Of a stretch of DNA of 64,000 nt, positions 27,628-51,243 are shown piece by piece. The stretch is from Caldanaerobius polysaccharolyticus DSM 13641 (lineage in GTDB: Bacteria > Bacillota > Thermoanaerobacteria > Thermoanaerobacterales > Caldanaerobiaceae): NCBI RefSeq assembly GCF_000427425.1, contig NZ_KE386494.1, forward strand, positions 376,476-440,475. The letters are read 5' to 3'. Under the pieces are notes generated by a model. It was not told the DNA's origin and ran no database searches. It saw only the letters and a program-made list of their open reading frames with translations. The stretch's first letter is position 1; each line of letters begins with the position of its first letter. Made by a program: the position numbers and the translations under genes.

Positions 27628-28600
27628 AGAAATTTTTTGACCTATTGTGGACCGACATTTTAAAGCAAAAACGAAGCCTCATGTGGCCGGCAGCTTCCTC
27701 GCACCACTTATTACAGAGGCGTTGCTATTTCTTGACCTTTACCTTCGCCGCGACTATATTCTCAATTAGGGCTCAAAAGAAGGTTTAAACGCCTGGCAAA
27801 CACTGGTCTTAGAACATCACTTGAGCGCCTTGTGGTTTATGATGCTACCCATGACAATTACAGTAGTATCTGCCATAATATATCATACAGAGTATGTCTC
27901 AGGGGGATTGAGGTATACCCTGAGCCTTCCCGTTGGGAAAGTCAGGCTGTATTTATCCAAATGGTGTACCACTGCCGCCTTTGTCGGCTTGTTGCTACTC
28001 TGTGACACCCTTATGCTTGCCATTACAGGTATGGCATTCCACCTTCCCGGCGAGAATAACAGCCTGGCGCTGGAGGGAGGAATATTTTTTGCAGTTACCT
28101 TTTTACTGGTAGGACTCTTTTGCTTTTCAAAAAAAAGATGTGACTGGATAATGAGGTAAAAACATGAAAAAATATTCGTAAAACTTACAGTAGGGTGTAT
28201 GATCTCCCTGTTGAATATTCTGGTTTTTTCATTAAGCCTGCCGGTGGCAGGAAAGATCATAGGTGCCCCTGGTAAAATACCTTATGACCTCATACTGGTA
28301 AAGCCCAGCATGGCGTATATAGCCTCGCTACCGGTCATGATAATCATCTTTCTTTTGAGCATAAATTTTTCCCAGATAGGAGTCCCTCTGGGTGTAGGCG
28401 TCGGGTTTGCTGTACCCTCTCTACTGGTAGCCAATACCAGGTACTGAATTTTCTATCCCTGGGCATACCCTATCATGGCGACATTGGGAGGAGATATGTT
28501 CAAAAAGACATATTTTCCCTACGTAGCAGGATTTTTGATTTTTGTAATATTGACTCTCGGAGGTTTACGCTGGTTTAAGAAAAAGGATGTACTTGATTGA
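27624..28600 (+). pseudogene. Broken BcrB-like ABC transporter permease
   Basis: Permease remnant overlapping the ATPase end. It starts with TTG (MKKFFDLLWTDILKQKR), shifts frame near 27700, and has an in-frame TAG near 27769. It is then readable as GLNAWQTLVLEHHLSALWFM and ITVVSAIIYHTEYVSGGLRY, shifts again near 28140, and continues through two hydrophobic segments. A TGA near 28445 interrupts it before a last hydrophobic piece that ends at 28600. The order kinase fragment, ATPase, permease matches peptide-antibiotic resistance modules. Confidence 0.8.
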
Positions 28601-30248: not shown

Positions 30249-30277
30249 ATAATATATTATACACGGCATCAATGCAA
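30249..30277 (-). promoter_or_regulatory. Promoter of the Mn riboswitch transcript
   Basis: Minus-strand TTGCAT, a 17-base spacer and TATTAT, about 10 bases before the aptamer. The -35 box overlaps the last codons of the DUF5317 gene. Confidence 0.65.
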
Positions 30278-30844
30278 CAGATTTTTGCCTTTCTCCCTCT
30301 TTTTGCTTTTAAACATAGCATCTACAATTATAGCAAAAGTACCTGAGGCGATAAACAAATCCCCTACGCTGAAAGCCTTAGGTAAAGGGTAGGGCTTTGG
30401 CAACATCATCACATCTGCCAGAAGTTTTAAGCGCGTGTCGCTATCCAAGACCTGATGAGTAGCCACTCGATTGGAAACCAGATCGGGTATCAAATTGTTC
30501 AAACCCGCAGCTCTCAGAGCATTCAAAGACACTGGCATCCTCCCACCGTTGGCAAAAATTACGATAAAGTTCAGGATTACACCTATGCTTATTAACCTCA
30601 TGTACCTATTGTCCTTGTTATACCAAAGCCCTGCGAACAACATGGCATAATCAAAGAAATGTATGTACACCCTATAAGCCATAATTAAAGGAAACCTGGA
30701 AGCAAGGTAGAGCATCGCAAACTCCGACCCAAAGCCCAGCACGAAGAAAAGCGGTTTTTTAATAGTTATATCAGCTATTGCGTAAAAGTCGCCTCTCCTC
30801 AACAACCCGTAAATCAACGCTAGCCCCAGCGCATCAAAAATCAT
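30269..30844 (-). CDS. DUF5317-family membrane protein
   Basis: A 191-residue protein with about five hydrophobic segments, a conserved-looking central ANGGRMPVSLNALRAAG stretch, and a basic C-terminus KSKKREKGKNL. The family is of unknown function. It overlaps the upstream HD-GYP gene by 11 bases and has GGAGG nine bases ahead of its ATG, so the two are cotranscribed. The pairing of HD-GYP with DUF5317 suggests a shared membrane signalling role, which is inference. Confidence 0.8.
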   Translation of the reverse strand: MIFDALGLALIYGLLRRGDFYAIADITIKKPLFFVLGFGSEFAMLYLASRFPLIMAYRVYIHFFDYAMLFAGLWYNKDNRYMRLISIGVILNFIVIFANGGRMPVSLNALRAAGLNNLIPDLVSNRVATHQVLDSDTRLKLLADVMMLPKPYPLPKAFSVGDLFIASGTFAIIVDAMFKSKKREKGKNLLH

Positions 30845-32108
30845 GGGTAAAGTCCTCCTTATGCTTTTCGTAAGCCTTCTTGAAGACCTCTATTATTTCA
30901 GGAGAAAATTGAGTGCCATTGCTGTTCAGGATTATATCGTAAGCTTCCTCACGGGTAAAAGCTTTGCGGTAAGGTCTGTTCGATACCAATGCGTCAAAGA
31001 CATCCGCTATAGAGAGTATTTGAGACTCCAGCGGTATCTCATGTCCTTTCTTGCCATCAGGATAACCCGTGCCGTCAAACCGCTCGTGGTGATGCTTAAT
31101 CCAAAGGCTTATATCCTTCAGGCCAGACACATCCTTTAAGATCTCATAGCCGTATTCCGAGTGATACTTTATGACCTCAAACTCCTCTGAAGTTAACTTC
31201 CCCGGCTTATTCAATATGCTCTCGGGAATGCCTATTTTGCCTACATCGTGCAAAAGAGCTGCTATCTGGACCCTTTCGGTGAGGTATTCACTAAAACCCA
31301 GTTCTCTGCACAAGAGGCTGGTTATCTTTTCCACGCTTTTAGAATGGCCTGCTGTATATTTATCCTTTGCTTCCAAAGCCTTTATCAAGACATTTATAGT
31401 CTCATAATAAGATTGCTTGGAATCCATATAAAGCTTAAACGTATACCTTATCATAAACAGAGGCACAAAGAAAAGCGCGAAGCTTATGTACCCATATTGC
31501 ATAAAAGCTGAAGCCATGATAATGCCTAAAAAGATCAAAAATAGCATATCAATCTGGGTCCATTTAAAATCCTTTCTCCATACGTATAAAAAAGGTTTAT
31601 TACTGAGTAATGTTACCAGATAGCTTATCATTAATGAATTTAACATGTAATAAATCAATGCGCCTATAAACGCTGGCACAATATATATGTATACTATCTG
31701 CTTTCCCGGTATACCACCCAGTAAAACATACGCAATACCACCAGCTCCTGTACTCAACGCTATTTGAGATATGTTAAAAAGGCTTTTGTAAAACGGCCTG
31801 TTGAATATGTGAGTTATCTTGTTGTGGTCTGTCTTGTCCAGCTTTAACACGTAACCCAACACCGCCACAAGAGCACCGCTATAAGGGCCTAAAAGCAAAA
31901 CAGCCATTAAGTCTACAGCAAAGGCCACAGAAAGGGTAACCTGCTTGGATATGTATATAGGAGATGATTCCGCCAGAGCAGCTAATGCGCCAAATAAAAC
32001 GATGTTTACAAGCTTTGTAATATCTACGTTAATCAACGAATACGCTATGAATAAAACACCGAACATTGATACCAAAAATATGTATACGCGGCTATTTCTG
32101 TTTAGCAT
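30834..32108 (-). CDS. Membrane-bound HD-GYP cyclic-di-GMP phosphodiesterase-like protein
   Basis: A 424-residue protein. The first 210 residues form about eight membrane helices, a MASE-like sensor. An HD-GYP domain occupies about 230-420. Signature residues are present: ALLHDVGKIGIPESIL (HD), HHERFDGTGYPDGKKG (HH and GYP) and LSIADVFDALVSNRPYRK. It probably hydrolyses cyclic-di-GMP in response to a membrane signal. I use the second ATG, 7 bases behind GGAGG. Together with the EAL-CBS-GGDEF protein it indicates cyclic-di-GMP signalling in the host. Confidence 0.9.
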   Translation of the reverse strand: MLNRNSRVYIFLVSMFGVLFIAYSLINVDITKLVNIVLFGALAALAESSPIYISKQVTLSVAFAVDLMAVLLLGPYSGALVAVLGYVLKLDKTDHNKITHIFNRPFYKSLFNISQIALSTGAGGIAYVLLGGIPGKQIVYIYIVPAFIGALIYYMLNSLMISYLVTLLSNKPFLYVWRKDFKWTQIDMLFLIFLGIIMASAFMQYGYISFALFFVPLFMIRYTFKLYMDSKQSYYETINVLIKALEAKDKYTAGHSKSVEKITSLLCRELGFSEYLTERVQIAALLHDVGKIGIPESILNKPGKLTSEEFEVIKYHSEYGYEILKDVSGLKDISLWIKHHHERFDGTGYPDGKKGHEIPLESQILSIADVFDALVSNRPYRKAFTREEAYDIILNSNGTQFSPEIIEVFKKAYEKHKEDFTHDF

Positions 32109-32201
32109 CTTCATGCCTCCGTAAAGATTGCTACATCGATTATATCATGACAGGGACGTTTGCACAATAAAATTAAAAGCTATGCTTTTCCTAAAACGTA
32201 A

Positions 32202-32233
32202 ACACACCTCCTTATTGGAATAAGGAGGTGTGT
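32202..32233 (-). terminator. Strong terminator after the 27-aa peptide gene
   Basis: A 15-bp perfect stem ACACACCTCCTTATT and its complement around a 2-base loop, then TTACGTTTT on the minus strand. The arm contains an anti-Shine-Dalgarno-like CACCTCC. Confidence 0.85.
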
Positions 32234-32242
32234 CATAAGAAA

Positions 32243-32326
32243 TCAACCCCAATAGAAATTTGCGCCGCCCGCCAGTGCCAGGGCCGCCAGCACCAGGAGG
32301 ACCTTTACCAATAACAACTTCTTCAC
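32243..32326 (-). CDS. 27-residue hydrophobic peptide with complete transcription unit
   Basis: A GTG start follows GGGGG at 7-8 bases spacing. The product begins MKKLLLVKVLLVLAALALAG and ends with seven more residues, ANFYWG preceded by G. It has an n-region of lysines, a leucine/alanine-rich membrane helix and a short aromatic tail. No lipobox cysteine is present. It may be a membrane-inserted small protein or a secreted signal-peptide remnant. Supporting it as a real gene are a TTGCAT-17-TATACT promoter, about 56 bases of leader, and a strong terminator ten bases after the stop. It is not part of the HD-GYP or pstS units. Confidence 0.65.
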   Translation of the reverse strand: MKKLLLVKVLLVLAALALAGGANFYWG

Positions 32327-32388
32327 GGTATTTCCCCCTTTCACTGCAGTAGTTTTCAAAATATGTAAATAATAGAGCTGCTACTCTT

Positions 32389-32417
32389 AGTATACCATAT
32401 TGTAATTTTTTATGCAA
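32389..32417 (-). promoter_or_regulatory. Promoter of the 27-aa peptide gene
   Basis: Minus-strand TTGCAT, a 17-base spacer and TATACT. A full TTGACA also occurs just upstream (32426-32431) but is wrongly spaced for this -10. Confidence 0.7.
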
Positions 32418-50996: not shown

Positions 50997-51026
50997 AAAA
51001 TAAAATATTATATAGGAAAGAGCACA

Positions 51027-51186
51027 GATAGAGGCGCGCTGTTTATGAGTACTGTGCGGGAGACTGGAGAGGTCTGTGAACCACAGAAAAGGAAACAGCG
51101 CCGAAGGGCCGGTATTCTCCGTGCCGGTTACCTGGTCAGTATGTGAAAAACATGCTGACTGTCATCAGCAATGATGGAGAGCTATC
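51027..51186 (+). ncRNA. Lysine riboswitch (L-box) aptamer
   Basis: A 160-base leader with L-box landmarks in order: closing strand GATAGAGGCGCG, GAGTACTG, AAAAGGAAACAGCGCCGAAG, GTCATCAGCAATGATGGAG, and closing strand AGCTATC pairing back to GATAG. It precedes asd, dapA, dapB and dapH, genes of the diaminopimelate/lysine pathway, as expected. Lysine binding should favour the terminator that follows. Confidence 0.95.
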
Positions 51187-51243
51187 TGGTTTATAGCCGT
51201 AATGCCTATAACCAGCTAGTTATTTCCATAACTAGATTTTTTT
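51186..51243 (+). terminator. Expression platform and terminator of the lysine riboswitch
   Basis: A first hairpin CTGGTTTATAG/CTATAACCAG (51186-51215) is followed by the terminator stem CTAGTTAT/ATAACTAG (51216-51235) and seven T. The first hairpin begins at the last base of aptamer helix P1, so it can compete with ligand-bound P1. Confidence 0.85.

Follow-up and report, generated by a model that had tools for sequence, protein, structure and literature searches.

AcrZ, KdpF and MgtS are regulatory small membrane proteins of fewer than 50 residues. Short open reading frames (ORFs) are also found in the translation-coupled leader peptides and arrest peptides TnaC, SecM and MifM, in the type I toxin mRNAs hok and AapA, which show 5′–3′ pairing, and in RNAIII, a dual-function RNA that carries delta-haemolysin. 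Here we describe a short gene on the minus strand of a 64,000-nucleotide stretch of Caldanaerobius polysaccharolyticus DSM 13641 (contig NZ_KE386494.1, positions 376,476 to 440,475; “the window”). Promoter, ribosome-binding site, 27-codon ORF and hairpin follow one another there, and the next gene encodes an HD-GYP protein with a MASE9 membrane domain. We conclude that this unit is a real gene, so far without a name, and that its tiny product is a predicted membrane protein with one helix. Beyond what had been predicted originally from the DNA letters, the gene in its usual form sits inside a conserved RNA and is in fixed pairing with MASE9-HD-GYP.

A 27-codon gene ahead of MASE9-HD-GYP

The original prediction placed a promoter, a leader, a GGGGG site, a GTG start, 27 codons and a 15-bp stem in order, and all of these were found where it had put them, on the minus strand. 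G001 was the single congener available for comparison with the window (G000). Its peptide (MKKLLLIKILLVLAALALAGGANFYWG) is identical at 25 of 27 residues and is also positioned before an HD-GYP gene. In the peptide frame, nonsynonymous divergence (dN) between the two was 0.034 and synonymous divergence (dS) 1.006 (dN/dS ∼0.03), which is the preference for synonymous changes that the prediction had proposed looking for and which indicates strong protein-level selection on this frame. The median dN/dS across peptide pairs was 0.27. A 90-codon frame with a TTG start (32417-32145) overlaps the unit, but the changes in G001 follow the 27-codon frame. Promoter, ribosome site and ORF are kept in G001, and the hairpin has been swapped for an unrelated one in the same position.

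Searches with tblastn across the class recovered the peptide from every f1, f2 and f3 genome (24 of 37 genomes overall) and from 0 of 13 f4 genomes. A profile hidden Markov model (HMM) built from 16 members was searched in 398 genomes, sampled evenly across the phylum, using whole genomes without context. The short ORF was present in 58 of these, which represent 41 of 267 genera; all but one of the 58 had a single match. Named loci (80) were reached via a scan for DUF5317. Among them, the peptide precedes HD-GYP in Thermoanaerobacter, Thermoanaerobacterium, Caldanaerobacter, Carboxydothermus, Caloranaerobacter, Thermosediminibacter, Alkalibaculum, Symbiobacterium, four Atribacterota loci and Ca. 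Oleimmundimicrobium; Chloroflexi and Bipolaricaulota gave weak peptide matches only. The spread therefore covers Bacillota by the whole-genome HMM search, with Atribacterota added by the named loci.

Gene order was mapped at 41 loci, 40 from the phylum profile search plus the window. The next gene after the peptide is HD-GYP in 40 of them, and the 41st (L081) stops at a contig edge. The common order is hpf, F2, peptide, MASE9-HD-GYP, DUF5317, secA, prfB, where the hpf, secA and prfB labels were assigned from their sequences. F2 (∼217 amino acids; for example, L095 5447-6097) lies between hpf and the peptide at 32 of the 41 loci and matched no family in Pfam. It is absent from the window's genus, which retains the pair of peptide and HD-GYP. 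Within the class, the peptide and MASE9 co-occur, and both are missing from all 13 f4 genomes. The sole mismatches are three peptide genomes without detected MASE9, two of which still have HD-GYP at that place. DUF5317 loci without this HD-GYP (for example, in Jeotgalibacillus and Acidimicrobiia) had no peptide within the stretch examined. We next read 40 loci with MASE9 genes, mostly from genomes without an earlier peptide match. The peptide was found at E < 0.01 in 21 and as divergent forms in several more; none was found at the three loci where MASE9 is part of a GGDEF protein, nor at a few HD-GYP paralogues.

The peptide consists of a basic N-terminus, a predicted helix of L, A and V with a near-invariant AGGA, and an aromatic tail, N-F-x-W. 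For the 79 peptides that were placed in register, mean hydropathy is above zero at each position from −11 to −1, and substitutions in the core exchange hydrophobic for hydrophobic residues. In the GGA motif the second G is present in 79 of 79 peptides and the A in 76. Conservation along the peptide is periodic (p 0.013), as expected of a helix face. Residues directly ahead of the tail are invariably small, and the final residue differs among homologues, as does the length of the stretch after W. The hydropathy profile predicts a single hydrophobic stretch of membrane-crossing length, as for a small single-span membrane protein, which is shortened in family f22. Models from Pfam, NCBIfam and PHROGs assigned the peptide to no family (best E 0.027, far short of the cut-offs).

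Structured RNA around the gene in relatives

In most relatives an outer stem encloses the whole peptide ORF, its upstream arm pairing with an arm past the stop codon. The 3′ arm begins a median of 11 nucleotides (nt) past the stop (quartiles 8-16), and a T-run stands at the end of 35 of 60 enclosing stems. The stem was scored as ungapped helices against permuted partners, and the mean helix score over 72 loci was 30.2 for true partners versus 18.5 (standard deviation 0.5) for permuted ones (z 24.5). Comparison by duplex free energy was uninformative for the outer stem, since loops extend freely. Within the outer stem come, in order, GAGCGGAGCGG, a hairpin with the loop UAGCGG and the ribosome site, which inner stems cover in several lineages. 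Of the 13 inner pairs, 12 have changed on both sides. Covariation of the inner pairs was 0.538, versus 0.185 for shuffled and ≤0.10 for slid controls. The alignment had been made to fit the structure, which works in its favor, but slid controls still gave ≤0.10. By these compensatory base-pair changes, the leader of the relatives qualifies as a conserved structured RNA. In the leaders of some lineages (L112, L105), elements like GAGCGGAGCGG occur twice before the hairpin, as if they were a repeated binding site.

A covariance model from eight sequences, small and structured by hand, gave 61 matches in the locus set. Over 299 whole genomes it matched in 24, never in more than one copy per genome. 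These matches adjoin known peptide positions, and five new ones, when opened, directly precede a peptide ORF. By this model, the RNA is tied to the peptide locus only. Rfam reported nothing over the peptide unit in the window, and a permissive Rfam search of the leaders in ten relatives found no family at the gathering score and one stray sub-threshold match (L043). RNAalifold returned no structure for a MAFFT alignment of 53 leaders due to misalignment. The outer stem is not clear in the window, in G001 and at four other mapped loci; in the window's genus the RNA has been lost and the peptide retained, with a promoter and terminator of its own.

Candidate roles of the peptide

The most likely reading, to which we give a probability of about 0.5, is that the peptide is a membrane microprotein with a single span that acts together with the adjacent MASE9-HD-GYP protein, a predicted phosphodiesterase of cyclic di-GMP (c-di-GMP) judging by its intact HD-GYP motif. 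The peptide would have its basic N-terminus inside the cell, its helix across the membrane and its aromatic tail at the outer face, and it would work in trans with the MASE9 domain as an accessory or regulatory helix. In most lineages the mRNA, whose ends are paired around the ORF, would govern translation of the peptide; in the window's genus a plain promoter and terminator would take the place of the RNA, with HD-GYP under its own promoter. Two points make us prefer this model: strong selection has retained the peptide even where HD-GYP is served by a promoter of its own, and substitutions in the core are of the kind seen in membrane helices, with conservation recurring periodically along one face. 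Several observations weigh against it. Peptides of family f22 have ∼20 (19-20) residues, are less hydrophobic (MKKVMRIVARLLSGGSNFMW, MKKVVKVLVSLVGAGYLKW) and have lost most of the span, and the RNA is kept; a full membrane span is thus not always required. The short f22 peptides, just ahead of HD-GYP at L213, L219, L221, L238 and L239, keep the G-rich stretch and the final W together with the RNA. At other MASE9-HD-GYP genes (L212, L215, L230 and L231) no upstream peptide was recognizable. Also, the peptide was never found apart from HD-GYP, which fits a role in cis too.

Such a role, possible if less probable, would be that of a leader peptide: a ribosome translating the small ORF would set whether the stem past the stop forms, and hence transcription into HD-GYP, and the peptide may pause the ribosome. 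This rival has to be taken seriously: the ORF was never found away from HD-GYP, which it directly precedes at every uncut mapped locus, and a ribosome terminating on the ORF could reach the 3′ arm of the stem, which often has a T-run. A stem or terminator in the position expected of an attenuator, just past the stop of the leader ORF and ahead of HD-GYP, is present; in the window the hairpin begins 8 nt past the stop. Coverage of the ribosome site by inner stems and the retention in f22 of RNA and ORF, and not of the span, point the same way. HD-GYP in f3 has little room for a separate promoter. In the window's genus, however, HD-GYP has a conserved promoter-like site of its own past the hairpin, and yet the peptide is strongly selected. 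Selection on the core is for hydrophobicity, and the last residue and the distance from W to the end vary, unlike arrest at a fixed codon. A combined form seems doubtful, in which peptide and enclosing RNA would be a new device regulating c-di-GMP turnover: the RNA would sense a condition, translation of the micro-ORF would open or close the stem, and the peptide would also act on MASE9-HD-GYP.

The original prediction spoke of a small membrane protein or a secreted peptide. Conservation from genus to phylum, the hydrophobic profile and selection favor the former, and the latter is kept only as a rival that we consider quite unlikely. Signal peptidase would cleave after GGA and free 3-8 residues, such as NFYWG. 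The basic start, the hydrophobic core and the small residues at −3 and −1, as signal peptidase needs, would suit a precursor, as would the f3 peptides, whose tails differ among species (NYAWG, NLTWH, NLQWN) and whose residues 1-22 are nearly constant. The invariant G at −2, however, is not needed for cleavage. Signal regions are commonly more variable than the product they release, and the opposite holds here. Apart from HD-GYP and DUF5317, no gene for a receptor or for processing is a constant neighbor. The type I toxin that had also been considered is very improbable. The peptide is short and hydrophobic with an aromatic end, and the mRNA ends pair in relatives; against this, the gene occurs as a single copy that keeps the same neighbor across many families, it has no mobile context and it matches none of the protein family models. 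As had been noted, no antisense RNA is evident: the promoter scan showed nothing promoter-like on the plus strand across the unit.

Under the preferred microprotein model, a gene below routine annotation size and a widespread membrane phosphodiesterase are fixed partners. The peptide provides a concrete handle on the control of MASE9-HD-GYP proteins, on which the open literature searched was silent; none of these papers combined HD-GYP and DUF5317, treated the MASE9 domain or contained the letters of the peptide core. The enclosing RNA is a second element that can be tested separately. Peptide without RNA in the window's genus and RNA with a short peptide in f22 imply that each element can persist without the other's full form, and these lineages serve as natural experiments that separate the two.

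Layout of the window and known systems

Table 1. Positions of the peptide unit and its neighbors in the window
Feature	Position	Strand	Evidence
Promoter TTGCAT-17-TATACT, TGn ahead of −10 (extended −10)	32389..32417	−	sequence; TTGCAT-17-TATAAT + TGn in G001
−35 TTGCAT; −10 TATACT; spacer 17	32417-32412; 32394-32389	−	sequence
Ribosome-binding site GGGGG	32334..32338	−	sequence; G-rich site in G001 too
27-codon ORF, GTG start 32326, stop TGA 32245-32243, product MKKLLLVKVLLVLAALALAGGANFYWG	32243..32326	−	identity and dN, dS with G001 (see text); within the order, every f2 and f3 genome has a single homologue
Terminator-like hairpin, 15 bp	32201..32234	−	terminator scan; unrelated hairpin at same place in G001
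Separate HD-GYP promoter-like site TTGTGC-17-TATAAT + TGn	32139..32167	−	sequence; TTGTAT-17-TATAAT + TGn at same place in G001
MASE9-HD-GYP gene, constant neighbor, likely start 32108	30834..32114	−	PF13487 E 2.5e-42; PF20972 MASE9 E 4.6e-08; HHERFDGTGYP motif intact
DUF5317 gene, overlaps HD-GYP end	30269..30844	−	PF17248 E 1.5e-43; cluster F1 in 35/41 loci

The −35 element of the peptide promoter has three of six consensus matches, so that the promoter is weak by consensus alone, and it was unlisted in the promoter scan of the window. The leader between promoter and ORF is ∼55 nt long. The hairpin (32234-32201) is far above chance. The whole window was scanned for a ribosome site, an ORF of 15-50 codons and a perfect hairpin of ≥10 bp, and only two places were returned: the peptide unit and 28495 on the plus strand, which resembles a broken permease end. 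Three successive short frames at 27821-28599 on the plus strand (27821, 28199 and 28495) resemble a broken ABC-type permease, and the last (34 codons, then a hairpin) matches within a 385-residue open frame of G013. A lysine riboswitch (RF00168, 111.5 bits) lies at 51021-51192 on the plus strand.

Like the c-di-GMP-I riboswitch (RF01051), the RNA of the relatives would serve c-di-GMP pathways, but it gives no match to RF01051. A true RF01051 element occurs elsewhere in L078 (8030-8116, plus strand), ∼2 kb from the peptide and on the opposite strand. As in hok and AapA, the two ends of the mRNA pair over a long range and enclose a short hydrophobic ORF; the locus differs in that no antisense RNA is seen and in its single-copy chromosomal synteny across families. 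RNAIII is likewise a compact folded RNA that also codes for a peptide of ∼26 residues, whereas the RNA described here is tied to one locus and is without known target pairing. TnaC, SecM and MifM resemble it in having a short ORF ahead of a regulated gene, here with a stem right past the stop, but the peptide's tail is variable, also in how far it stands from the stop, its core is hydrophobic and HD-GYP has a separate promoter in the window. AcrZ, KdpF and MgtS show no sequence relation to the peptide, whose putative partner is MASE9-HD-GYP and whose ORF, in relatives, lies within a conserved fold of the mRNA; the likeness is in the plan, one short membrane helix in a small protein that would serve a larger membrane partner.
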